From positions 6,265,684-6,329,683 of the forward strand of contig NZ_CM001558.1 of NCBI RefSeq assembly GCF_000281895.1: a stretch of 64,000 nucleotides of DNA, read 5' to 3'. Below, piece by piece: positions 31,847 to 47,494 of the stretch. The DNA is from Pseudomonas fluorescens Q2-87 (lineage in GTDB: Bacteria > Pseudomonadota > Gammaproteobacteria > Pseudomonadales > Pseudomonadaceae). The notes beneath the pieces were generated by a model. That model was not told the DNA's origin. It made no database searches and saw only the letters and a program-made list of their open reading frames with translations. Position 1 is the stretch's first letter. Every line of letters begins with the position of its first letter. Position numbers and translations under genes: made by a program.

Positions 31847-32812
31847 TCAAGGACACCGGCAAACAGCCAGACCGGCCTGCAGGACATCAGCATCTTGCGG
31901 CGCATCGAAAATCAATTCCAGTCGTGAATCCTGTCGCCATTCGCTGGCCCGCCAAGCCAATGCCGCGCCTTGCAACGCGTTAGCAGACATCCAACCATCA
32001 GCGCCGCGAACCACCATCTTCGCCCTTCTCCAGCGTTGGCTATGTAGCCATAGGGTCAACGCCGCTGTGTCGAATCGTTGGCTTGGATGCCAGCGCCAAC
32101 CGATGCTCCAGCCGCCCTCTTGGGCCTGATAAAGACAGATTGGCAATGCCGGATCGGTCCAAAGCGCCGGCACTTCGCCCAGCCCTTTGGGTAGATTCAG
32201 GTTATCCACAGCCCCATGTCCCCGCTCGGCAACACCGGGCAACTGATCGAGGGGCAGCGCGCCTTGTTCTGTCCAGTACAGTACGAGCCCTGGCAGCTGC
32301 TGGGTGACACGCTCGCGATCGGCTTGCGTAAGGCTCTCGGATTTATTCAGCACCAGCAATCCGGCATGGGCCAAAGCCTGCTGTTGAGGATCGGGCAATG
32401 GCTTGCCCTGCGCCATCGCTCGGGCATCCAGCACCAGCACACAAGGCTGGACCGTCAACACACCGAGCCAGGGCGCTTCGTTCAATTGCCGCATCAACTG
32501 CGCCGGGTGGCCCAGCCCCGAGGGCTCGATAAACAACCGGTCCGGTCGAGCCTTGCGCAGCAAGCGCCCAAGGCCAATCTGAAACGGCGCGCCGTTGACG
32601 CAACACAAGCAGCCCCCGGCCACTTCGCCCAGTGCGATACCATCGGCGGACTCGGTCAGCAACGCGGCATCCAGGCCGATCTGGCCAAACTCGTTGATCA
32701 GTACGGCCCAGCGTTCATTGGTTGGGCGCTGGGCCAACAGGTGCCTGATCAGGCTGGTCTTGCCAGCGCCCAAAGGACCGGCGATGACATGAGTGGGAAT
32801 GTGCTGCAACAT
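31847..32812 (-). CDS. CobW/COG0523 family GTPase (metallochaperone-like)
   Basis: A 321-residue G3E GTPase. Walker A is AGPLGAGKTSLIRHLL (residues about 11-26), followed by the switch region INEFGQIGLDAALL, the metal-binding GGCLCCVNG (CxCC), FIEPSGLGHPAQL and the NKSE specificity motif. The C-terminal CobW_C domain (about 225-315) completes it. COG0523 proteins deliver zinc to client proteins when zinc is scarce. Its start is only 27 bases from the start of the divergent six-cysteine protein, and zigA/folE2/zinc ABC genes lie immediately beyond, so it probably belongs to the same zinc-limitation set. Confidence 0.88.
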   Translation of the reverse strand: MLQHIPTHVIAGPLGAGKTSLIRHLLAQRPTNERWAVLINEFGQIGLDAALLTESADGIALGEVAGGCLCCVNGAPFQIGLGRLLRKARPDRLFIEPSGLGHPAQLMRQLNEAPWLGVLTVQPCVLVLDARAMAQGKPLPDPQQQALAHAGLLVLNKSESLTQADRERVTQQLPGLVLYWTEQGALPLDQLPGVAERGHGAVDNLNLPKGLGEVPALWTDPALPICLYQAQEGGWSIGWRWHPSQRFDTAALTLWLHSQRWRRAKMVVRGADGWMSANALQGAALAWRASEWRQDSRLELIFDAPQDADVLQAGLAVCRCP

Positions 32813-32839
32813 AATCGACGGCTTTCGATGGAGGTGGAA

Positions 32840-33193
32840 ATGCGGATAATCGGCTGGTTATTACTGACACTGGCTTCGAATCAGGCACTGGCCCAGGCCT
32901 GCGTGGTACACAGCCAGGCGGAACGACTCGACGTGAAGGTCTGCCAGCAGAACCGCAACATCCCGCCGAAACTCTTCGCTGATGGCTTCTGCCAGCCAAG
33001 CCTGGCCGGGCAAAAGGTCGAGGTGCAATACGTCGAACAATGCCCCGAGGGGGCGTTCGGTGTCTGTAGCAACGCCCAAGTCGCCAATATGCCCTACCGT
33101 CAGGATATTCACTATTACGGCGTGGCGACTGATGCGGCTTATCTGCAACCGTTTTGCGAGGGAAAGAGCCAGGGCACCTGGCTCAAGCCTTAG
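32840..33193 (+). CDS. Small exported six-cysteine protein
   Basis: A 117-residue protein with a signal peptide (MRIIGWLLLTLASNQALAQA, cleavage after ALA) and six cysteines in the mature part, at QACVVH, KVCQQN, GFCQPS, EQCPEG, GVCSNA and PFCEGK, likely three disulfides in the periplasm. The ATG at 32840 follows GGAGGTG. Relatives near zinc genes in fluorescent pseudomonads carry misleading NADH:ubiquinone oxidoreductase labels; nothing here supports that. Its 3' end is 6 bases from that of zigA. A role in periplasmic zinc handling is only contextual inference. Confidence 0.75.
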   Translation: MRIIGWLLLTLASNQALAQACVVHSQAERLDVKVCQQNRNIPPKLFADGFCQPSLAGQKVEVQYVEQCPEGAFGVCSNAQVANMPYRQDIHYYGVATDAAYLQPFCEGKSQGTWLKP

Positions 33194-33199
33194 GAGCGC

Positions 33200-34408
33200 T
33201 TACGCAGCGACCTCCTCATGCCATGGACCGAACGGATCGGGCAACTGGCGCCACGCTTCAATCCCAAGTGCCATCTCGGCGTCAGTCAGCAAGCAGGCGT
33301 CCAGCTCGGTGGTCAGTTGGCCGAAATCGACATCCTGGCCGATGAATACCAACTCTTGGCGGCAATCGCCGGTGCCGGCGAGCCAGTTTTTCATGATGGC
33401 GGCGATGCTTTCCTCATCCTGTGGCCATTGTTCTTTTGGCACGAACCGCCACCAACGCCCGGCGAACCCATGACGCATCAAGCCGCCGGCCTGGGACCAA
33501 CTGCCGGCTTCTTCAGGTTTGCTGGCCAGCCAGAAAAAGCCCTTCGAACGGAGGATTTTCCCGTTCGTCCACGGACGGTCGATAAAGTCGAAAAATCGCT
33601 GCGGGTGAAACGGTCCGCGTGCCCGATAGGCCGTCGAGGCGATGCCATATTCCTCGGTCTCCGGCAGGTGCTCGCCACGCAGCTCCTTTAACCAGCCGGG
33701 CGCCTGGGCGGCACGCTCAAAATCGAACAGGCCGGTGTCGAGGATTTTTCCCAGGGGCACCTGCCCCATGACCATGGGAATGATCTGCGCCTGGGCATTG
33801 AGACGCTGCAGAATCGCGACCAATTCCTCCCTTTCGTCCTGGCCGATCAGGTCGATTTTGCTGATCAGGATTACGTCCGCAAACTCGATCTGCTCGATCA
33901 GCAGGTCCGTAATGGAGCGCTCATCGCCCTCGCCCAGCGTTTCGCCTCGGGATGCAAGACTGTCGGCGGCCTGGTAATCCAACAGGAAATTCACGCCATC
34001 GACCACCGTCACCATGGTGTCGAGTCGCGCGACATCGGCCAGGCTTCGCCCTTCGTCATCGCGAAACGTGAAGGTTTCCGCCACAGGCAACGGCTCGGAG
34101 ATGCCGGTGGATTCAATCAGCAAATAATCGAAACGCCCTTCCCTGGCGAGCTGGCCGACTTCTTCCAGCAAGTCCTCACGCAAGGTGCAGCAGATGCAGC
34201 CATTGCTCATCTCCACCAGTTTTTCTTCAGAACGACTCAGGGAGACGTCTCGCTGGACTTCGCTGCCGTCGATATTGATCTCGCTCATATCGTTGACGAT
34301 CACGGCGACCCGCAGATTGTCGCGATTACGTAGCACATGGTTGAGCAGCGTACTTTTACCGGCTCCGAGAAATCCGGAGAGCACAGTTACGGGTAGGCGA
34401 TTGGGCAT
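33200..34408 (-). CDS. zigA: Zinc metallochaperone GTPase ZigA (COG0523)
   Basis: A 402-residue COG0523 GTPase induced by zinc starvation in pseudomonads, thought to move zinc to essential enzymes. It has Walker [17 protein letters not shown] (about 11-26), the Zn-binding [15 protein letters not shown] (CxCC), [23 protein letters not shown] and a C-terminal CobW domain ([19 protein letters not shown]). It is divergent from folE2 with two Zur-type palindromes in the 207-base gap (34496-34510, 34572-34586), consistent with repression by Zur. Confidence 0.92.
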
Positions 34409-34495
34409 GGGAAATCCTCATCAGGCGGCCGTCGCTGCTGTGTGCTGCGGCTCGTTTTCTGGCTTCGGTTGAGTTTAAAGTCGCTTCACTTTTCA

Positions 34496-34510
34496 TGTTA
34501 TAGTATAACA
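34496..34510. promoter_or_regulatory. Zur box (perfect palindrome)
   Basis: TGTTATAGTATAACA has 7-base arms around one central base and fits the GTTATA-N-TATAAC form of gammaproteobacterial Zur sites. It lies 88 bases upstream of zigA and 106 bases upstream of folE2, both zinc-starvation genes. Confidence 0.85.
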
Positions 34511-34571
34511 CTAACGCTCAACCAGCCTGATGATGAAACACTCTTCATCGAAAAACATACCGTGCACTAAG

Positions 34572-34586
34572 TGCAATACTATAACA
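34572..34586. promoter_or_regulatory. Second, half-conserved Zur box
   Basis: TGCAATACTATAACA keeps the right arm TATAACA intact and has two changes in the left arm relative to the palindrome 76 bases away. It is 30 bases upstream of the folE2 start, close to the expected promoter. Confidence 0.65.
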
Positions 34587-34615
34587 TTCGAACAAACCTG
34601 TGATGGACCTAGATC

Positions 34616-35509
34616 ATGAATGCGTTAACGCTGCCCGACGTTGCTGCGCAGACCTCACGTCAACCGCTCCCCCTTGATTGGGTTGGTATGCACGGCATCG
34701 CAACCCCAGTCTTAATTGGTGGCCAGCGCTTGAGCGCGATTGCCGATGCGGGTGTCAGCCTCGACGACGAGGAAGCTCGGGGCATTCACATGTCACGCTT
34801 ATACCTGGCGCTAGAAAAGCTCGAAGAGACGGAGCTTTCACCGAAGCTGCTGCATCAAATCCTGCAGCAATTTCTCGACAGTCACGAAGGCTTGTCCCGC
34901 ACTGCATCCCTAAGCATTCACACGGATCTATTGCTTAAACGTCCGGCGTTAGTCAGTCCTTTGGCCGGCTGGAAGCGCTACCCCGTGAGCATCGAAGCGC
35001 ATCTGCAAAACGCAGTGTTCCACGTGGAACTAAAGATTGAGGTTCCTTATTCTTCTACGTGTCCGTGCTCAGCAGCCTTGGCCCGCCAGTTGATCCAACA
35101 GCGATTCGTGGATGACTTCGCTAACAAAAAACTCGAGCACGCCGAGATTTTGGCCTGGCTGGGTTCAGCAAATGGCATTGTCGCAACCCCCCACAGCCAG
35201 CGAAGTACCGCCACACTGAACCTGCGGTTGAATACCGACACCGATGGGTTGCCGCTGCTGGCATTCATCAACGAGGCCGAAGCAGCCCTCGGCACCGCTG
35301 TGCAAACCGCAGTCAAACGTGCCGACGAACAAGCCTTCGCCCTCGCCAACGGACAGAACCTGATGTTCTGCGAAGATGCCGCTCGGCGATTGACCACAGC
35401 GCTGAGGCAATCCCATCACCTCGCTGCACTCGAAGTACGAGTGGTTCATGCCGAAAGCCTGCACGCTCACGACGCCGTGGCCCTAAGCCGTTGGCAGCGG
35501 GAGGCATGA
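34616..35509 (+). CDS. folE2: GTP cyclohydrolase IB (FolE2)
   Basis: A 297-residue COG1469 enzyme converting GTP to dihydroneopterin triphosphate for folate synthesis. It replaces the strictly zinc-dependent FolE when zinc is scarce because it tolerates other metals. Features seen: LDWVGMHGIATPV at the start, RGIHMSRLYLAL with the metal-ligand His, and SSTCPCSAALARQ carrying the active-site Cys. It begins 30 bases after a Zur-like site and its stop overlaps the ABC ATPase start by one base, so it leads the importer operon. A parS-like palindrome is embedded in its coding sequence (35016-35031). Confidence 0.95.
   Translation: MNALTLPDVAAQTSRQPLPLDWVGMHGIATPVLIGGQRLSAIADAGVSLDDEEARGIHMSRLYLALEKLEETELSPKLLHQILQQFLDSHEGLSRTASLSIHTDLLLKRPALVSPLAGWKRYPVSIEAHLQNAVFHVELKIEVPYSSTCPCSAALARQLIQQRFVDDFANKKLEHAEILAWLGSANGIVATPHSQRSTATLNLRLNTDTDGLPLLAFINEAEAALGTAVQTAVKRADEQAFALANGQNLMFCEDAARRLTTALRQSHHLAALEVRVVHAESLHAHDAVALSRWQREA
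35016..35031. promoter_or_regulatory. parS-like centromere site inside folE2
   Basis: TGTTCCACGTGGAACT contains the perfect 14-base palindrome GTTCCACGTGGAAC, matching the chromosomal ParB-binding parS sequence of pseudomonads (TGTTCCACGTGGAACC/A). It is read in frame through folE2. Confidence 0.82.
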
Positions 35510-36177
35510 TGATCCGTTGCAAAGACTTGTCCTGGGGTGCTCCCGGGCGACCTCTCGCTCCGCCGCTGAATATGGAGCGGCCAACAGGCAGCCTGACGGC
35601 CATTATCGGCGCCAACGGATCGGGCAAGAGCAGCCTGTTGAAAGTACTCGCCGGGCTGCAAAAGCCACTGTCAGGTAAAGTCATGCTGGAGGTTCCACGG
35701 CATGGCGGCATCTCGTTCCTGCCGCAGCAGCAACATTTGGACCGACAATTCCCTATCAGCTTGCAGGAGTTGGTAGCCGCTGGTTCGTGGGGTAACCGGC
35801 ATACGCCAGCCATGCGCAGACAGTTGCTCCAAGCCGCACTGGCAGGCTGGGCGCTGAATGGGCTGGAACATCATCCGCTGATGGCGCTGTCCGGGGGCGA
35901 GTTACAACGTGCCCTGCTCGCTCGCTTGAGCCTCGCCGAAGCACCGCTGTTATTGCTCGACGAACCTCACGCGGCCCTCGATGAGCAAGGCCAGGCGCTG
36001 CTGTGGAAATACATTCATGGCTGGCATGCAGAAGGCCGGACGGTGGTGGTGGTTTGTCATGATCTGGCTGCGGTACGCGAACATATTCCCCATACGCTGC
36101 GGATCAATGGCGCCGGGTGCGTGCTGGATCGCAGCGTCGACCTGATTGCGCAACAACCTCGAACGTTGGAGGCCTGA
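35509..36177 (+). CDS. Zinc/manganese-type ABC transporter ATP-binding protein
   Basis: A 222-residue ABC ATPase with Walker A IGANGSGKSSLLKVL, Q-loop FLPQQQHLDRQ, signature LSGGELQRALLARL, Walker B LLLLDEPHAALDEQG and the switch His in VVCHDLAAV. It energises the cluster-9 metal importer with the next two genes. The second of two adjacent ATGs (35509) is preferred because GGGAGG ends four bases upstream. It is shorter than classic ZnuC, so I leave the symbol empty; AztA-type or a second Znu-type system are both possible. Confidence 0.88.
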   Translation: MIRCKDLSWGAPGRPLAPPLNMERPTGSLTAIIGANGSGKSSLLKVLAGLQKPLSGKVMLEVPRHGGISFLPQQQHLDRQFPISLQELVAAGSWGNRHTPAMRRQLLQAALAGWALNGLEHHPLMALSGGELQRALLARLSLAEAPLLLLDEPHAALDEQGQALLWKYIHGWHAEGRTVVVVCHDLAAVREHIPHTLRINGAGCVLDRSVDLIAQQPRTLEA

Positions 36178-37043
36178 TGCTCGCGGCCTCTCATCTGTGG
36201 CAACCCTTCCAGGAGTTTGTCTTCATGCGCCGGGCCTTGCTGGGCGGCCTGGTATTAGCGTGCAGCACAGCCCCGCTGGGCGTATTCCTGATCCTGCGCC
36301 GCATGAGCCTGATCGGTGATGCCGTCGCCCACGGTATTCTCCCCGGCGCCGCCCTGGGTTTCTGGTTCGCCGGTTTGAGCCTGCCGGCGCTGACGTTGGG
36401 CGGCCTGGGAGCGGGCCTTGGTATGGCCGGGCTGGCGGCCTGGATCACCCGTCGCACCGGCCTGCGCGAAGACGCCAGCCTCGCGGCGATCTATCCCATT
36501 TCCCTGGCTGCCGGCATCTTGATCCTTGGAATGGCCGGCAAACGCCTGGACCTTCTTCACCTGTTGTTCGGCTCGGCATTGGCGGTGGATGCGCCAACAC
36601 TCACCGGCATGCTTTGGGTGTGCGGGATCAGCCTGGCAGTGATGGCGCTGATCTATCGACCTCTGCTACTCGACACCCTGGATCCGTTGTTCTTGCAAAC
36701 GGTAAGTCGTCTCGGCCCATTGGCCCACGGCGTATTCCTCACCCTTGTGGTACTTAACCTAGTCATTGGTTTCCAAGCCATTGGTGCGCTGATGGTGGTC
36801 GGCCTGATGATGCTACCGGCGGCCGCTTCGCGCTTCTGGAGCCGCCGCCTGCCGATTCTGATGATGGTCGCGGCGCTGCTCGGTTGCCTCTCGGTGTGGC
36901 TTGGCTTGTTGCTGTCTTTCTATTTTTCACTGCCCAGCGGGCCGTCCATCGTACTGGTGGCGGGCGCGTTGTATCTGATGTCCGTGGTGTTCGGGCCGGT
37001 GCACGGTTTGTTGCGCCGCCCGCCTTTGCTCACATCCCAATGA
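36177..37043 (+). CDS. Zinc/manganese-type ABC transporter permease
   Basis: A 288-residue ABC-3 family permease with about eight membrane segments. The characteristic start region FMRRALLGGLVLACSTAPLGVFLILRRMSLIGDAVAHGILPGAALGF is complete, including SLIGDAVAH, where the ATPase docks. The start overlaps the ATPase stop by one base (TGATG), and the binding protein follows 11 bases after its stop, so the three subunits are co-translated. Confidence 0.9.
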   Translation: MLAASHLWQPFQEFVFMRRALLGGLVLACSTAPLGVFLILRRMSLIGDAVAHGILPGAALGFWFAGLSLPALTLGGLGAGLGMAGLAAWITRRTGLREDASLAAIYPISLAAGILILGMAGKRLDLLHLLFGSALAVDAPTLTGMLWVCGISLAVMALIYRPLLLDTLDPLFLQTVSRLGPLAHGVFLTLVVLNLVIGFQAIGALMVVGLMMLPAAASRFWSRRLPILMMVAALLGCLSVWLGLLLSFYFSLPSGPSIVLVAGALYLMSVVFGPVHGLLRRPPLLTSQ

Positions 37044-37054
37044 GGTGTTTCCCG

Positions 37055-37930
37055 ATGCGCGCCCTGCTCGTGCTGTTCAGTCTCATGCTGTCCATGTCCC
37101 TGTCCGCCGCCGAAAAGCTGCAGGTGGTGACCAGCTTCAGCATCCTCGCCGACATGACCCGACAGGTCGGCGGTGAGCATATTCAAATCACCAACATGGT
37201 CGGCCCCGATACCGATGCGCACACCTACGAACCCACGCCAGACGATGCAAAGGCGTTGCTCAAGGCAAAACTGATTATCAAGAACGGGCTCGGCTTCGAG
37301 CCTTGGTTGGATCGCCTGGTCGCCAGCACCGAAACAACTGCGCCGGTGATCAGCGCCAGCCGCGGGGTCATTCCCCGCTCAATGGACGAAGATGGCGAGA
37401 CCATGCCCGACCCCCATGCCTGGCACAACCTGGCGAATGTCGAGTTGTATGTGGCGAATATCACCAAGGCGCTGGAGGCGGCCGATCCGACCAACAAGGC
37501 CGACTACGAACACAACAGCCAGGCCTACCTGAAGAAAATCTACGCCCTGCTCGCTGAAGCCAAGGCCAAGTTCGGTGCGTTGCCGGCGGGCAATCGCAAG
37601 ATCGTGACATCCCATGATGCGTTCGGTTACCTGGGCCAGGCCTACGGCATCGCGTTCATGGCGCCCCAGGGCTTGTCCACTGAACGTGAACCTTCGGCAG
37701 CCGAAGTCGCGGCACTGATTACTCAGATCCGACAGGCGAAAGTCAAAGCGGTATTCATGGAAAACATCAAGGACGCGCGCCTGCTCAAGCAGATTGCCGA
37801 CGAGAGCGGCGCGCACATTGGCGGTACGTTGTACTCCGACGCTCTCGCGGCGAGCGGGCCGGCCAGCACCTTTACCGGCCTGTTCGAGTACAACCTAAAC
37901 ACGCTGTACGAGGCGTTGAGCCGACCTTGA
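37055..37930 (+). CDS. Periplasmic metal-binding protein of the zinc ABC importer (cluster 9)
   Basis: A 291-residue exported binding protein (signal peptide about 1-19, cleavage near LSA-AE). All four metal ligands of the ZnuA/TroA/PsaA family are visible: His in DTDAHTYEPTP, His in DPHAWHN, His in TSHDAFGYLG and Asp in LYSDALA. The long His-rich loop of canonical ZnuA is absent, replaced by a short acidic stretch (SMDEDGETMPD), which suggests a ZnuA variant or AztC-type protein. The start at 37055 follows GAGGTG at a good distance. Zinc is favoured over manganese by the folE2/Zur context. Confidence 0.9.
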   Translation: MRALLVLFSLMLSMSLSAAEKLQVVTSFSILADMTRQVGGEHIQITNMVGPDTDAHTYEPTPDDAKALLKAKLIIKNGLGFEPWLDRLVASTETTAPVISASRGVIPRSMDEDGETMPDPHAWHNLANVELYVANITKALEAADPTNKADYEHNSQAYLKKIYALLAEAKAKFGALPAGNRKIVTSHDAFGYLGQAYGIAFMAPQGLSTEREPSAAEVAALITQIRQAKVKAVFMENIKDARLLKQIADESGAHIGGTLYSDALAASGPASTFTGLFEYNLNTLYEALSRP

Positions 37931-41444: not shown

Positions 41445-43364
41445 TTACGACACGGATTGCTGGTCCGAAACTTTCGTCAGCGGCTCCTGGAATCGCAGCA
41501 AGCGCCCCGCGTTTCCCAACACCAGCAGCGTGCTCAAATTGTGCAGCAGCGCGGCGATCATGGCACCCGCCGCGCCGAGCCAGCCGAACGCTGCGAAGGC
41601 AACGATCGCCAGTGTCCAACCCAGGCCGATGATCACGTTGACCTGCAGCGTGCGCCTGCATTGGCGGCTGAGGCGTACACAAGTGCCCAACCGCCGCAGG
41701 TCACTGCCGATCAGTACGATGTCCGCCGACGCGAGGGCTATATCCGCACCGCCCGCGCCCATCGCGACGCCAACCACGCCGGCCTTGAGCGCCAGGGAAT
41801 CATTGATGCCATCGCCCACCACCATGGGCCGGAACCCTTGGTTGATTTCGGTCATGACCCGCTTGAGTTTGTCTTCCGGCAAGGCCTGGGCCTGTACGTC
41901 ACTGATGCCGATTCCCCGCGCCAAGGTGTTGGCCACGCTTTGACGATCACCCGTCAGCAGCAACTGACGTCCCAGGCCTAACGCCCGCAGTTCCGCCAAT
42001 GCCACCTGTGCTTCCGGCCTGACGCTGTCCGCCAGCAACAGCCAGGCGAGGAATTGTCCGTCCAGGGCCAGACCGGCAATCGGACCGTCGTGCTCGGGCA
42101 CCGGTGAAGTCTTGATGCCTAACTGTGCGAACAGCTCCGGCCGGCCGAGCGCCGCTTCGCCCTGCCCGGTCATCGCCACCACGCCCAGTCCCTGCCGCTC
42201 ATGGATATCCGTCAGGGACGGATAATTCTCCTGCGCCACCAGGCCCGCCAAGGCACGGCTGACCGGATGACTGCTGGCAGAGCCGAGGCTGGCGGCCAGA
42301 GGCAGCAACCCGGGCAAATGATCAGCCTGTGCTCTTTCAATGGTTTGCAGGCGCAAGGCTCCATGCGTCAGCGTGCCAGTCTTGTCGACGACCAGGGAGG
42401 TGAGGTCCGCCAGTTCTTCCAGGAAAGCCGAACTGCGGATGAGTATCCCGTGTCGTGCCGCCACGGCAATCCCGGCGATGGCCGTCGCCGGTGCCGACAG
42501 CACCAACGCACAAGGACACGCAGCAACCAGCACCGCCAGCATCGCCTGGGCATCGTTGGTCACGAACCAGGTCACCGCCGCCAACAACAAAACCAGAACC
42601 AGATAGCTGCTGGCGTAGCGCTCCAGCAGACGGGTGATGGGCGGTTTTGAGCGTTCGGCGTTCTGCATCAGGGCAATCACTTTGCCCAGGGTTGATTCAT
42701 CCCCCGTGCGCGTCACTTGCAGGCGCAGCAACCCATCAAGATTGATTGCACCACCGAAAACTTCGGTGCCGACGACGGCCTCCAGTGGCACCGACTCGCC
42801 GGTGATGGGTGCGGTGTCGAGGCTGGCCTGGCCCGACAGCACCCGGCCATCGGCCGGCACGCGATCACCAGCGCGTACTTCGACGATATCGCCGGGCTGA
42901 AGCGTTCCGTTGTCCACCTCGATGATCGAGCCGTCTGCCTGGACTTTGCGCCCCTGGCTGCGAGTCAATTGGCCGAGGGCATGAATCGCCTCCTGCGAGC
43001 CGATGACACTGCGCTCCTCCAGCACGTGCCCGAAGATCATGATGATCGGCAACAATGCCGCCGTCAGCAGATCCCCAGTGGCCCAGGCGCCAAGCATCGC
43101 CAGGGCGATCAATTGGTCAGTGATGCCGTGCAGGCTCGGGAAACGCAAGCTGTACCAGGCAGAACGCATCACCGGCACCGCCACCAATAGCGAGGCGAAG
43201 CCCAACAATAACTGGCTGACACCGGATGGCTCCGGGGACCAGCCGCGCCACACCAGCCCCAAGGCAAGCAATCCCAGGGCGAGCATCGCCAACGTCAGTT
43301 GCCGGGCGGCGGCGCGTTGTTCGGCCGACGACAACATCGGTGCGGCAGGAGTTGAAGCGCTCAT
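41445..43364 (-). CDS. P1B-type heavy-metal ATPase, HmtA-like (probable zinc/copper importer)
   Basis: A 639-residue metal-pumping P-type ATPase. Motifs in order: TGE at 188-190, membrane metal site CPC at 283-285 (AACPCALVLSAPATAIAG), phosphorylated DKTGTLT at 327-333, the SSHP motif near 366, and GDGINDSLALK. There is no N-terminal heavy-metal-associated domain. It is the last gene of a four-gene overlapping operon with three SPFH proteins. From memory, P. aeruginosa has a Zur-controlled operon of HflK/HflC-like genes with HmtA, a P-type ATPase reported to import zinc and copper; this arrangement and the Zur-like site at 47470 point to the same role. Export cannot be excluded from sequence alone. 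Confidence 0.82.
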   Translation of the reverse strand: MSASTPAAPMLSSAEQRAAARQLTLAMLALGLLALGLVWRGWSPEPSGVSQLLLGFASLLVAVPVMRSAWYSLRFPSLHGITDQLIALAMLGAWATGDLLTAALLPIIMIFGHVLEERSVIGSQEAIHALGQLTRSQGRKVQADGSIIEVDNGTLQPGDIVEVRAGDRVPADGRVLSGQASLDTAPITGESVPLEAVVGTEVFGGAINLDGLLRLQVTRTGDESTLGKVIALMQNAERSKPPITRLLERYASSYLVLVLLLAAVTWFVTNDAQAMLAVLVAACPCALVLSAPATAIAGIAVAARHGILIRSSAFLEELADLTSLVVDKTGTLTHGALRLQTIERAQADHLPGLLPLAASLGSASSHPVSRALAGLVAQENYPSLTDIHERQGLGVVAMTGQGEAALGRPELFAQLGIKTSPVPEHDGPIAGLALDGQFLAWLLLADSVRPEAQVALAELRALGLGRQLLLTGDRQSVANTLARGIGISDVQAQALPEDKLKRVMTEINQGFRPMVVGDGINDSLALKAGVVGVAMGAGGADIALASADIVLIGSDLRRLGTCVRLSRQCRRTLQVNVIIGLGWTLAIVAFAAFGWLGAAGAMIAALLHNLSTLLVLGNAGRLLRFQEPLTKVSDQQSVS

Positions 43365-44413
43365 TGTTCGGCTCCCTGGATGATCAGGCGAGAATCGTCT
43401 TTGGGATCGACCGTGGTCACTGCGCCGGCCTGACGAAGGATTGCGGGCATGCGCTCACGGTAGAGGCGCAATAACGTTTGCGGATCATTGCCTTGGGTCT
43501 TCGCCAGGCCCAGCACCGTGGCGGTGTCGGCCGACGCTTTGGCGAGCCGTTCACTGGCCTGGGCATGGGCGACCAGAAGGGCTCGGTCAGACGACTGTCG
43601 CGCGGCCTGGGTGAGCTTTTCGGCTTCGGTGCGAGCATTGGCCACGGTTTTGTCAGCTTGCTGGCTGGCAGTCAGCACCGCATTGAAGGCACTCACGGCG
43701 GGCCCTGGCAGACTCGATTGCACATCGACCCGCACCACTTCGATGCCCAGTCCCTGCCCTGTTCCCGCAAGATCACCCAGCCGTCGATTGATGCCTTGGA
43801 CCAGATCGCCCCGCAATCGCTCGCGGCGTTCGGCGGCCTGGCTATCGCTGCCCATCAGTTCCGGACGAGCCACCAGAATGGTATCCAGGTCCCGGGCCGC
43901 TGTCAGGGCCACGGCGCTACGTGCCGCCAGGCGATCCAATGCGGGCAGCACATGCTCACCCTGCAGAACGAAAGCGTAAGGGTCGGTCACTTTGTAGAAC
44001 ACCCGCACATCCAATTGCACCACGCCGGCATCACCGGTCAATAAATACCCAGAGCCTGCCAGTGCATCACTGACCGGCGTGGCGAAACTGGCCACTCGGT
44101 CGGCCTGCAAGGCTTCATCCGAACGCAACAAATTCTCTACCCGCCGCTCCAGCACCCGATCCGCCGCCGGCAGCAGAATGATTTGTTCCACAGGACTCGG
44201 CCAAGCCAATAGCAAGCCTGCGTTCTGGATTCGATCCAGCGCACCGAAGTGCAGTACCACCGCGCGGTTTTGCGGGTCGATCTGCCGCACATTGGAGAAC
44301 ACCCACGCCAGCGCTGCCAGGACCGTGACCGCATAAAGCGCTAGAAACGTGAGGCGCCCGGCCTGAATCCACGGGCTGGATAACTCGTTTGTTCCACGTG
44401 GAACCAAACTCAT
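43361..44413 (-). CDS. SPFH-domain protein, HflC-like
   Basis: A 350-residue membrane protein with one N-terminal membrane segment (about 20-42) and a stomatin/prohibitin-type SPFH domain beginning RQIDPQNRAVVLHFGAL, followed by a helical region rich in Ala/Gln (ASQQADKTVANARTEAEKLTQAARQ). HflK/HflC-type proteins form large cage complexes in the inner membrane with the domain in the periplasm. Its stop overlaps the P-type ATPase start by 4 bases, and its own start overlaps the preceding gene by 4. A parS-like site covers its first codons. Confidence 0.85.
   Translation of the reverse strand: MSLVPRGTNELSSPWIQAGRLTFLALYAVTVLAALAWVFSNVRQIDPQNRAVVLHFGALDRIQNAGLLLAWPSPVEQIILLPAADRVLERRVENLLRSDEALQADRVASFATPVSDALAGSGYLLTGDAGVVQLDVRVFYKVTDPYAFVLQGEHVLPALDRLAARSAVALTAARDLDTILVARPELMGSDSQAAERRERLRGDLVQGINRRLGDLAGTGQGLGIEVVRVDVQSSLPGPAVSAFNAVLTASQQADKTVANARTEAEKLTQAARQSSDRALLVAHAQASERLAKASADTATVLGLAKTQGNDPQTLLRLYRERMPAILRQAGAVTTVDPKDDSRLIIQGAEQ
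44390..44405. promoter_or_regulatory. parS-like centromere site inside the HflC-like gene
   Basis: TGTTCCACGTGGAACC is identical, from memory, to the Pseudomonas parS consensus. It encodes part of the start MSLVPRGTNE on the minus strand and is 9.4 kb from the other site at 35016. Confidence 0.87.
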
Positions 44414-45450
44414 GGTTGTGTTCCACCCTTGGGTTCCACGCCAGGAGGACCGTCCACCAAGACACGAAATGGCGCAGCGTCGGTACGCAAAATCAGCTTC
44501 GTGCCCGGGCTCACGATGGTGCCCAAGGTGTCCAGCGAACGCAGCAAGTTGTAGAGCTGGGGCGCGCCCGCATACGCACGACCATAAATCCCGGCCGCCT
44601 CCACTCGGGATTGCGCCTCGATATCAGCGGCCTTCACCGTCGCGTCCGCTTGCAATACTCGCGCATCCCGTTCTGCCGCAGAGCGGATCTGAGCCGCTTC
44701 GCGCTTACCGATGGCGGTGCGTTCGGTGGCAATGGTTTCGCGTTCGGCGCGCATGCGATCCACCGTCGCGGTCAGCGTCACCGAAGGCAAGGTCAGGCGC
44801 TCAATGCCCACCTGCAACACGCGCACGCCGTAAGTGGCGAGTAACTGTTGATCGATTTGCTGGCGCAATTGCGCTTCGAAATCGGCGATACGCACCTGGC
44901 TTGCGTCGGTGTTGACCAGGTTGGCCAAGTCAAAACTGGCCGCCGTGGTCTCCAGCGCCGAACCGACGAACGTGCGGATCTGCCGTGCGGCTTCATCTGG
45001 CTGATTCTGCACCGCACGCATAAATCGTTGCACGTTGTCCGGGTCGCCCTGTACCTGCCACGCCACGTAAGCCTGGACGATGATCCGCAACCCGTCGCGC
45101 GTACCGACGTCTTGCAGTCCGCTGGACGTGGTGCGCAGGCGCAAGTCCACCGGGATCGCCGCCTCGAACGGCGCCGGCCAACGCCAACCCAGGCCAGGTT
45201 GCAACAGCACCCGCGCCGGATTGCCGAAGCGAGTGATAACGGTAGCCTCCCCCGAACGCACTTGCACCAGGCTCGCGGCCGCGACGGCAAACGCCACCAG
45301 CAATGCCGCCCAACCCATCCGCCGCCAGGGGAACGGGCCGGCGTCCTGCCCGGCGCCATGATGGTGGTGATGATGCCCATGGTGATGACCGGCATGACGG
45401 TGATCATGTCCGGCGTGGTCATGATGATCGTGTGAAGAGGACTGGCTCAA
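44410..45450 (-). CDS. SPFH-domain protein (HflC/HflK-like) with a His-rich N-terminal tail
   Basis: A 346-residue membrane protein whose first 31 residues contain 16 histidines (for example HDHHDHAGHDHRH and a run of six His), followed by one membrane segment (about 45-62) and an SPFH domain starting VRSGEATVITRFGNPARVLLQPGLGWRWP. With HflK/HflC topology the tail would lie in the cytoplasm, where it could bind zinc next to the co-encoded P-type ATPase. Both ends overlap neighbouring genes by 4 bases. The His tail is absent from ordinary HflC. Confidence 0.85.
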   Translation of the reverse strand: MSQSSSHDHHDHAGHDHRHAGHHHGHHHHHHGAGQDAGPFPWRRMGWAALLVAFAVAAASLVQVRSGEATVITRFGNPARVLLQPGLGWRWPAPFEAAIPVDLRLRTTSSGLQDVGTRDGLRIIVQAYVAWQVQGDPDNVQRFMRAVQNQPDEAARQIRTFVGSALETTAASFDLANLVNTDASQVRIADFEAQLRQQIDQQLLATYGVRVLQVGIERLTLPSVTLTATVDRMRAERETIATERTAIGKREAAQIRSAAERDARVLQADATVKAADIEAQSRVEAAGIYGRAYAGAPQLYNLLRSLDTLGTIVSPGTKLILRTDAAPFRVLVDGPPGVEPKGGTQP

Positions 45451-47408
45451 TGGGCAGCTCCTGGCTGGACAGGGTTACGCGGCGACGCGGGGTCTGCCGG
45501 CAGCGTGAAGGTACGCAGGTCAATGGTCGGCGCGTTACCGCTGCCGCCGAGGCGATGATCGAGGATCAGCAGTTTGGCATCGACAAGGCCTTGGCTCAGT
45601 TGGCTAAGGTATTGCTCCAGCACAAAGGCATGGCCGGCCTTGGCATAGGCTTGGCGATCCGCGCTGAATCGCAAATCGGCGGCCCGGGCGGTCGCGTCAA
45701 TTTCCCGGGCGATGGCTTGGGCCTGGTCATGGACAATGCTGGCCTGCAATTGCGCCTGGTTGGTCTGTTCCGCCGCCGCACCGCGTTCCCGGGCGATCGA
45801 TGCCTGGACGCCGATCTGCGCCGCTTGCACGCCGTGGTACGCATTGGCCGCACCGGCCGGTGGGTGAATCGCTTCGACGACCGTCGCGAGGATCTCCACA
45901 CCGCTGTCCAATGATTGCAAATCAGCCTGTACGGCGCGACCGATCTCCTCGGCCAGGCTGACACGGTCCGCGCCCAGCAAACCGTCCAGCGTACGGGAAG
46001 CGAACTCATGGACCAGGACCCGACTGGCAGTGCTGCGGATCAACGTCGGCACATCGGCGCTGTTGTAGGTCGCCGCCAGCGCCGCCGAATCGCTCAGACC
46101 GATGCGATAGACGAAGCGCACGTCCATGTTGACGATCTGGAAGCTCTGTTGGTCGGCACGTTGGCTGGCGATAACCTGGGATTTGTCATTCACATGGCTA
46201 GCATCCCAGAGACGATTGGCTATCGCCGGGGCCGGTCCCTCCGCCGGACTGATATCGGAGGGTGCGCCACTGTCGCCAACATTGGAGGCCAATTCGTGCA
46301 CGATCCCGTACTCGACGTTGAGCACCCTGCCCAAAGGCCAAGGCAAGGCGACATGCAGGCCCGGGCCGAAGACCTCCACCGGTTTTCCGAAACGTTCATA
46401 GATGCCGCGCCCTTGCAACGGCACCTCGTGCACACCCGTCAATAACCAGCCCACCAGCGCCACCAGGGCCAACACCGGCAAGAAGGCGCGGCGCATGTAG
46501 CTGAAAGCCCAGATCTGGCGCAAGTCGATGCCGAAACGGTTGTGCAATTCATGTTGCAAGGCCAGCAATGGTCGCGGCGGCCAGCGCAAGAGATCGGCGA
46601 TGACACTACGGCCCAGCAGCGTCGGCTCCAGGGCATCGCGTCGCGGGATGAACAACGACAGTACCGCCCGCAGCAATAACTCAACCGCCACCAGGCCCGG
46701 CAGAACGCCCATCAGCACGGCCAAGCGCACCGGCCAGACAGACGCGGGCGCGGCGAACAGCAAGCACAAGGCGCCGAACACCAGCACGATGATCGCCACC
46801 CGGGTCAGTTGCGCCAAAGGTGACGCTTCGGGCCACTCCACGGCGGGCTGCTGGGCCAGTTGTCGCTCGAACACCAACAGCCCGAAGGCCAACAATAACG
46901 ACAACACCGCACCCACACTGGCCGATGCGCCAAGGGTAGCCGCAGGCAACTGCAGGTTCCAGGCTTGCTGCAGGCTAACAAGCACGAGCACCGCCCAACC
47001 GGCCAGCCACAGGGTGGGCGCACCGATTTGCTTGAACAGCTCAACCCAACGCGCGCCGACTCGCTCAAGCAAACGTTCATACCAGCCGAGGTTATCCACA
47101 ATCCCAGGTTCCGGAACCTGATCATCCACCGCTGGCAGCAGCGCCCTGCTCCGCCACTGAGTGATCCACCAGGCCGACTGCAAGCCCGCCACCAATACCA
47201 ATAAGCCGGCGCTCTGGCTGACCAACAAGGCCGGCCACACCGATTGTGGCGAAAACAGCCCGATGAAAAAACCAGCGATCAGCGCCAGTGCGGCCACGCT
47301 ACCCAGCGCGAAGGCGATTCGCTTCAGGCGTTGCCCCTGAAACGACGCTCGCTGGAAGCGCGGCCATTCGGCCACTCGTGCCCCCTCGACATCAAGATCG
47401 ACTTGCAT
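45447..47408 (-). CDS. Large HflK-like SPFH protein with an N-terminal polytopic membrane domain
   Basis: A 653-residue protein, first gene of the operon. Residues about 25-270 contain several hydrophobic segments (ALGSVAALALIAGFFIGLF, LLVSQSAGLLVLVAGLQ, LWLAGWAVLVLVSL, LLSLLLAFGLLVF, VAIIVLVFGALCLLFA). One further segment near 310-330 leads into the SPFH domain (VPLQGRGIYERFGKPVEVFGPGLHVALPWPLG). A long Ala/Gln-rich helical region follows (AAEQTNQAQLQASIVHDQAQ). The size is well above ordinary HflK (about 400), the excess being the extra membrane domain. A Zur-like inverted repeat lies 62-86 bases upstream. Confidence 0.85.
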   Translation of the reverse strand: MQVDLDVEGARVAEWPRFQRASFQGQRLKRIAFALGSVAALALIAGFFIGLFSPQSVWPALLVSQSAGLLVLVAGLQSAWWITQWRSRALLPAVDDQVPEPGIVDNLGWYERLLERVGARWVELFKQIGAPTLWLAGWAVLVLVSLQQAWNLQLPAATLGASASVGAVLSLLLAFGLLVFERQLAQQPAVEWPEASPLAQLTRVAIIVLVFGALCLLFAAPASVWPVRLAVLMGVLPGLVAVELLLRAVLSLFIPRRDALEPTLLGRSVIADLLRWPPRPLLALQHELHNRFGIDLRQIWAFSYMRRAFLPVLALVALVGWLLTGVHEVPLQGRGIYERFGKPVEVFGPGLHVALPWPLGRVLNVEYGIVHELASNVGDSGAPSDISPAEGPAPAIANRLWDASHVNDKSQVIASQRADQQSFQIVNMDVRFVYRIGLSDSAALAATYNSADVPTLIRSTASRVLVHEFASRTLDGLLGADRVSLAEEIGRAVQADLQSLDSGVEILATVVEAIHPPAGAANAYHGVQAAQIGVQASIARERGAAAEQTNQAQLQASIVHDQAQAIAREIDATARAADLRFSADRQAYAKAGHAFVLEQYLSQLSQGLVDAKLLILDHRLGGSGNAPTIDLRTFTLPADPASPRNPVQPGAAH

Positions 47409-47469
47409 ACCACTCCAGCGCTTTGAGGCGATCAGAACCCGGGGCCGTGGACAGACGCCACCGCCGCTC

Positions 47470-47494
47470 CGTTATATGGCGTTACCTTATAACG
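47470..47494. promoter_or_regulatory. Candidate Zur site upstream of the SPFH/P-type ATPase operon
   Basis: CGTTATA (47470-47476) and TATAACG (47488-47494) are perfect inverted arms 11 bases apart. Within them GTTACCTTATAAC (47481-47493) matches 10 of 13 positions of the perfect Zur palindrome at 34497-34509. It lies between the divergent SPFH operon (start 47408) and lpd (start 47631). Confidence 0.65.

Follow-up and report, generated by a model that had tools for sequence, protein, structure and literature searches.

Introduction

P1B-type ATPases of the class that includes HmtA are normally exporters of metal. Metal import by HmtA of Pseudomonas aeruginosa goes back to a single study, as described in passages of two reviews (PMC10393844, PMC8456098), one of which asks for confirmation; over-expression of the protein reportedly altered metal handling, with metal accumulation and hypersensitivity (PMC10393844; see also PMC8456098). 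A close relative of this apparent exception among the P1B pumps is encoded in the stretch of Pseudomonas fluorescens Q2-87 analysed here (64 kb of contig NZ_CM001558.1, hereafter the window; the genome, of 6.37 Mb, is a single contig), as the last gene of an operon whose other three genes encode membrane proteins of the SPFH family (SPFH1, SPFH2 and SPFH3). Within the sampled genomes these four genes form a nearly obligate module, which is new here, and they are proposed, with a probability of roughly one half, to encode a Zur-controlled zinc-import module in which the SPFH subunits cage HmtA.

The regulation of the operon is already known from its P. aeruginosa homologue, the hmtA-containing cluster PA2434-PA2439, for which both Zur binding and induction by zinc depletion have been shown by others. 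According to the passages of these reports that deal with the cluster, a znuA mutant showed a 5.6- to 14.4-fold rise in its expression, with PA2436 not listed, and it carries a weak predicted Zur site (PMC4542158); Zur together with zinc shifted the PA2439 promoter in an electrophoretic mobility shift assay (EMSA), and hmtA mRNA did not drop upon zinc addition (PMC8531726); zinc depletion raised the HmtA and PA2437-2439 proteins, not all of them significantly (PMC11761036); and N-acetylcysteine raised the PA2437-2439 transcripts (PMC9431628). No passage on PA2439 was found in PMC8041468. The statement in a review passage that Zur bound every uptake promoter but that of hmtA (PMC10393844) fits badly with the EMSA on PA2439. 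This confusion may come from distance: in the window operon hmtA comes last, and the box lies 4 kb before its start.

Among solved systems, the closest to the SPFH trio is the HflK/HflC cage on FtsH of Escherichia coli (PDB 7vhp, 7wi3, 9cz1 and 9cz2), SPFH2 being like HflC and SPFH1 and SPFH3 like HflK. That cage is built from two subunits, whereas the window system has three, which score under the curated cut-offs and go beyond HflK/HflC in six additional N-terminal membrane helices (SPFH1), a His-rich tail (SPFH2) and a metal pump as genetic partner. A trio of this kind was named PaFlo5-PaFlo6-PaFlo7 in a 2026 study of P. aeruginosa PA14 (PA14_33070/33080/33110; PMC13086221), where, as in the window, three SPFH genes lie in one predicted operon, with a patchy and probably horizontal spread. 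Deletion of this trio had slight effects, with about 20% less biofilm and attenuation in Galleria. It was present in two of ten other Pseudomonas species in that study; here, full-length SPFH1 turned up in 15 of the 38 genomes searched within the order. The passages of that paper on the trio make no link to HmtA or zinc, and its main text has neither "ATPase" nor "copper" and names "zinc" once, with FtsH. Likewise, the open-licence PMC papers found to list the genes as one cluster ascribe to the SPFH proteins no function alongside HmtA, as far as their listings, abstracts and relevant passages go, and in those passages the P. aeruginosa genes have no role beyond the names HflK and HflC.

Organization of the operon

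Four open reading frames (ORFs) on the minus strand, from 47408 down to 41445, encode in order from the promoter SPFH1, SPFH2, SPFH3 and an HmtA-type P1B ATPase (Table 1). The three SPFH proteins pass the Pfam Band_7/SPFH gathering score of 23.6 (71.4, 111.5 and 63.3 bits, respectively), and in the fourth product the Pfam E1-E2_ATPase and Hydrolase domains are both above cut-off. Like the window operon, PA2434-PA2439, the cluster induced by zinc depletion in P. aeruginosa, encodes HflK-, HflC- and HflC-like proteins together with HmtA; the P. aeruginosa annotation also has PA2434 and PA2436, whereas the window operon lacks both. The comparison with P. aeruginosa was made by sequence for HmtA and by gene order for the SPFH proteins, by which SPFH1, SPFH2 and SPFH3 are the probable homologues of PA2439/PaFlo5, PA2438/PaFlo6 and PA2437/PaFlo7.

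Table 1. Positions and strands, within the window, of the operon, its promoter elements and the neighbouring locus.
Feature	Position	Strand	Description
SPFH1	45447..47408	-	653 aa; six-helix N-terminal membrane domain, seventh membrane helix, HflK-like SPFH domain
SPFH2	44410..45450	-	346 aa, TTG start; HflC-like, one membrane helix, His-rich N-terminal tail
SPFH2 His-rich tail coding sequence (first 40 residues)	45331..45450	-	at least six His within the first 45 residues, 101/101 loci
SPFH3	43361..44413	-	350 aa; HflK-like, single N-terminal membrane helix
HmtA-type P1B ATPase	41445..43364	-	639 aa; CPC in sixth membrane helix, DKTGT, His608-Asn609 in last helix
Zur-like core box	47481..47493	-	GTTATAAGGTAAC as read along the operon strand; 72 bases before the start codon of SPFH1
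25-bp outer palindrome CGTTATA-N11-TATAACG	47470..47494	.	named by the earlier note; located by sequence scan
Neighbouring zinc-starvation locus, outside the operon	33200..37930	.	ZigA (minus), FolE2 and AztA/B/C-like ABC transporter (plus)

An earlier note on this DNA, made from the sequence alone, had described three SPFH genes and an HmtA-like ATPase gene overlapping by 4 bases at every junction, with which the ORFs and the Pfam matches agree. Its further claim that these overlaps imply a fixed stoichiometry does not hold, because the SPFH1/SPFH2 overlap is missing in about half of the related loci and TTG is the start codon of SPFH2 in 82 of 101 (starts as placed here). Among the 102 loci described below, less those without a usable start or gene, the 4-base overlap is present in 48/101 loci for SPFH1/SPFH2, 78/99 for SPFH2/SPFH3 and 81/85 for SPFH3/HmtA, counts that are biased upward by the choice of the start codon closest to a 4-base overlap.

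Conservation and linkage of the four genes

The loci used for comparison come from a scan of named genomes in which 395 SPFH1 relatives were confirmed and the best 80 of the 395 kept (63 Pseudomonas, 17 Rhizobium or Rhizobiales). Together with the window, 14 relatives' loci and 7 further ones, these make up the 102 loci, two of which (L066 and L073) are one locus. SPFH1, SPFH2, SPFH3 and HmtA lie on one strand and in the same order in 101 of the 102, the exception being a contig of 3283 bases. Since this set had been selected by SPFH1, a reverse search was started from HmtA, covering matches at E up to 1e-160; in these searches the best three candidates per genome were scored. Such a match occurs in 11 of 398 genomes of the phylum, and full-length SPFH1 (E below 1e-200) was found adjacent to it in the same 11, with weak partial SPFH1 matches only in 7 further genomes. 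The tie between three SPFH proteins and a single metal pump, as put forward in the earlier note, is a specific one and recurs across loci as a gene linkage.

The distribution of the module is patchy. Of 38 genomes, the window's own among them and most from the genus and the order, 15 contain full-length SPFH1, all of them Pseudomonas, and three others show weak partial matches only; among 369 genomes of the class a full match was seen in the window's own genome only. The hosts are Pseudomonas, Rhizobium and enterobacterial-looking genomes, and the neighbourhoods differ among them; in two enterobacterial-looking genomes the module lies between msrA and a CNNM/CorC-type gene, and the database names for their relatives include Buttiauxella, Leclercia, Enterobacter, Cedecea and Sodalis. 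The closest named protein matches of SPFH1 are from Pseudomonas sp. Tri1 and P. brassicacearum (87%).

Pairwise distances of the four proteins correlate with r of 0.96-0.99 over the 81 loci in which all four are intact (21 of the 102 were dropped), a correlation that shared descent would also be expected to give. In the four trees, whose 81 loci retained a single enterobacterial-looking one, Rhizobium forms one split throughout, and Pseudomonas separates cleanly in those of SPFH2 and SPFH3 but not in those of SPFH1 and HmtA. Most simply, all of this is explained if the four genes are passed on, and evolve, as a single unit.

The Zur-like box and the promoter

The 13-mer upstream of SPFH1 matches the Zur pattern GTTATANTATAAC at 10 of 12 fixed bases and resembles the published zrm site GCGTTATAGTATATCAT given in PMC8456098. 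It stands inside the longer sequence CGTTATA-N11-TATAACG that the earlier note had named as a site with an internal partial Zur match; this sequence is indeed present, occurring once in the window at up to two mismatches (expected, 0.01). As a functional unit the 25-bp palindrome is not supported: its outer arm is common to the window and one relative (2 of the 79 Pseudomonas promoters that bear the core), so that the conserved element is the 13-bp core, and a double Zur site was rejected as a general feature.

Of 82 Pseudomonas loci, 79 have the strict form of the core, GTTATANNRTWAC, ahead of SPFH1, between -123 and -39; it is likewise present in both enterobacterial-looking loci (2/2), compared with none of 1640 shuffled Pseudomonas regions. 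The loci without it are L110, L116 and L043 in Pseudomonas and L089 in Rhizobium. In the whole genome of the window strain it is found at three places, all beside zinc-starvation genes: the zigA/folE2/azt-like genes, the gene of a zinc uptake protein of the ZrgA family and the SPFH/HmtA operon. The form was written after viewing the promoters of the operon, and independent evidence therefore comes from the other two places; as the reversed control has two matches, the scan is informative only through the location of the three. Two looser patterns gave no signal and were set aside, GTTATANTATAAC with two mismatches (12 sites per strand in the genome versus 41 for the reversed control) and GTTATNNNATAAC with one (30 versus 54). 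By its sequence pattern, the core box qualifies as a putative Zur-type operator at the operon promoter. The link to zinc limitation proposed in the earlier note is borne out by this conserved box and, for the P. aeruginosa homologue, by the EMSA, RNA-seq and proteomics found in the published passages cited above.

In 75 of the 79 promoters the core is preceded, at a distance of 12 bases, by TTCAY, which may belong to a -35 element. For the operon strand a sigma-70 scan gave no promoter, and for the opposite strand one.

In the Rhizobium loci the place of the box is taken by an 18-bp palindrome, GATACGTAATAACGTATC, present upstream of SPFH1 in 17 of 18 (one locus counted twice). It is strongly conserved (loci L073-L088) and is a candidate regulatory site, perhaps a Zur box. 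In the single Rhizobium genome searched it was found at one place only (up to three mismatches), with no second zinc gene for comparison.

The SPFH proteins

Compared with solved structures, SPFH2 matches HflC best and SPFH1 and SPFH3 match HflK best, and the hflK and hflC models are the top NCBIfam matches of the trio, although the equivalog cut-offs were missed (SPFH1 57.1 and SPFH3 90.1 versus 159.4 for hflK; SPFH2 90.3 versus 134.4 for hflC). The genome has a canonical HflK/HflC-like pair at another site, and the trio is therefore an addition to it.

Two features of the trio went beyond the earlier note. The N-terminus of SPFH2 is rich in histidine, with at least six His within the first 45 residues in 101 of the 101 loci measured, and this tail is predicted to be cytosolic. 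The structure prediction of SPFH2 had a mean predicted local distance difference test score (pLDDT) of 46 with 24 close sequences, and the protein was left out of the fold search. In SPFH1, the N-terminal six-helix domain (residues 1-258) has a predicted fold that appears to resemble that of zinc CDF transporters (YiiP, ZnT), and its SPFH domain carries seven near-invariant histidines, each kept in 80 or 81 of 81 loci. The histidines of both proteins may bind zinc.

The apparent likeness of SPFH1 to CDF proteins is confined to the predicted fold. Homology was not found at the sequence level, where the profile match failed (hhalign probability 0.3%; P 0.24 versus 30 hydropathy-picked ORFs at PF01545 matches) and no CDF chain appeared among the 11 matches of the N-terminal part at E up to 10; nor did any Pfam family reach its cut-off in the first 300 residues. 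In CDF transporters, zinc is bound by Asp/His residues of helices 2 and 5, whereas no Asp or His was seen by eye in residues 57-90 or 195-217 of SPFH1 (the second and fifth predicted helices). The SPFH1 domain differs from them also in being fused to an SPFH domain.

The structural matches would also suit the main rival to a caged pump, that the trio is a zinc-starvation set of HflK/HflC proteins regulating the zinc protease FtsH by sparing it, retargeting it to membrane proteins rich in zinc or replacing its normal cage, with HmtA merely sharing the promoter. A passage of PMC11761036 points to FtsH (HflB) as the zinc metalloprotease partner of such proteins, and the canonical pair elsewhere in the genome makes an alternative set possible. 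The trio nevertheless scores well under the hflK/hflC family cut-offs, and this explanation accounts neither for the His tail of SPFH2 nor for the exclusive tie to HmtA, whose clade was not found apart from the trio in the 398 genomes at the cut-off applied. We regard it as unlikely.

It is less probable still that HmtA acts alone and that the trio, co-regulated with it, is a general microdomain that protects or organises the membrane in zinc starvation and does not touch the pump. The metal handling reportedly changed by over-expressed HmtA (PMC10393844; see also PMC8456098) and the small effects of the trio mutant on biofilm and Galleria virulence (PMC13086221), as given in the respective passages, are in keeping with such a role. 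From a generic membrane function the trio and the pump would be expected apart at times, and against this stand their very tight linkage in distant hosts and their matched divergence.

The ATPase

Over 622 residues the ATPase shares 81% identity with P0156, a P-type ATPase that carries the name of the Pseudomonas aeruginosa group and through which, rather than the PA2435 record, kinship to P. aeruginosa HmtA was measured. The P-type domains contain the CPx, DKTGT and HP motifs, with C283, P284, C285, D327 and H366 kept in 81 of 81 loci. Of the solved structures, it is matched best by a cadmium-translocating ATPase (7qbz) and by ZntA (4umv), which share with HmtA the E1-E2 ATPase with CPC, DKTGT and HP motifs.

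Several differences from these zinc P1B ATPases were seen. No N-terminal metal-binding domain was found in HmtA by Pfam, two extra cysteines (Cys562/Cys569) are conserved, and ZntA has Asp-Thr where HmtA has His608-Asn609 (alignment by eye). Asp714 and Lys693 of ZntA align by eye with His608 and Thr584 of HmtA, respectively, pointing to a different site, yet giving no information on direction.

HmtA may import zinc, and perhaps copper. A very improbable alternative is that it exports metal into a periplasmic space enclosed by the SPFH proteins, where during starvation the metal would load zinc proteins of the periplasm or outer membrane or supply FtsH-type assemblies, as the usual direction of the class (passages of PMC10393844), the Cd/Zn-exporting annotation of several close HmtA relatives and the two best solved matches might suggest, since it sits poorly with de-repression by zinc scarcity (PMC4542158) and with the metal accumulation and hypersensitivity reported upon over-expression (PMC10393844).

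Proposed mechanism

The zinc-import module with a caged HmtA would operate as follows. When cytosolic zinc falls, Zur would leave the box and the four genes would be expressed together. The three HflK/HflC-type proteins would assemble into a hetero-oligomeric ring or cage on the periplasmic side of the inner membrane, and HmtA would be its dedicated client; we take the topology of this cage to be analogous to that of HflK/HflC. The CDF-like six-helix domain of SPFH1 would anchor the assembly, its conserved histidines being offered to the periplasmic side, and the His-rich tails of SPFH2 would form a zinc-holding fringe where HmtA would release the metal into the cytosol. Gene content and order, tight linkage, the Zur-like box, the His tail and the conserved residues are read from the sequences; the complex, its cage form and topology, zinc binding by the histidines and the direction of transport are inferred.

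In a more specific version, a three-SPFH hetero-oligomer with a ligand-less CDF scaffold and a histidine fringe at the cytosolic exit would cage the primary-active pump and, in starved cells, pass zinc from capture through pumping to delivery without setting it free. Such an assembly would be a new class of membrane machine; this version is offered tentatively and is somewhat unlikely as a whole. We know of no earlier SPFH assembly dedicated to a metal pump.

That three scaffold-like membrane proteins accompany a metal pump across bacteria suggests a machine for uptake, the scaffold part of which has received little study. The tight genetic link allows a client to be named for these SPFH proteins, and zinc starvation as the condition of interest, which could explain the nearly silent knock-out of the trio in P. 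aeruginosa. HmtA itself may have been studied without its partners, which bears on the question of import. To the known regulation, the present analysis adds the linkage, the conservation of the box, the His tail of SPFH2 and the CDF-like domain and histidines of SPFH1, specific features that can be tested.

Other zinc genes and variants of the module

A second zinc-starvation locus in the window, likewise beyond the earlier note, extends over 31847-37930 when a CobW-like GTPase is included. An exact Zur-like box, GTTATAGTATAAC, lies between zigA and folE2 at 34497-34509, and the AztA/B/C-like zinc ABC transporter proteins score below the Azt cut-offs. Elsewhere in the genome, the third strict Zur-like site (L160, G000:C1:5454224) is placed about 30 bases before the gene of the ZrgA-family zinc uptake protein. 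A zur gene is present as judged by context: a Fur-family gene (L188, G000:C1 near 54045) adjoins an ABC ATPase gene and is divergent from znuA (PF01297), with a related sequence, GTTATTATGTTAC, between it and znuA. It was named from this position between znuA and the ABC ATPase gene because its score is under the model cut-off (116.6 bits versus 167).

Several variants of the module were observed. The Rhizobium rhizogenes assembly JAAMEZ01 has two copies on separate contigs (L076 and L077). In one enterobacterial-looking genome SPFH2 is broken into two ORFs (L068:7014-7997), the other three genes being single ORFs. Another locus has an ORF of 150 aa between SPFH3 and HmtA (L069:8242-8694), with no Pfam match and, by eye, a signal-peptide-like start, which perhaps takes the place of PA2436; the HmtA of this genome matches Pseudomonas sp. 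PSE14. In one relative, genes for an MbnB/TglH-type modification enzyme of ribosomally synthesized and post-translationally modified peptides (RiPP) and for a DUF2063 protein lie between hmtA and cfaB (L071:2983-4625).

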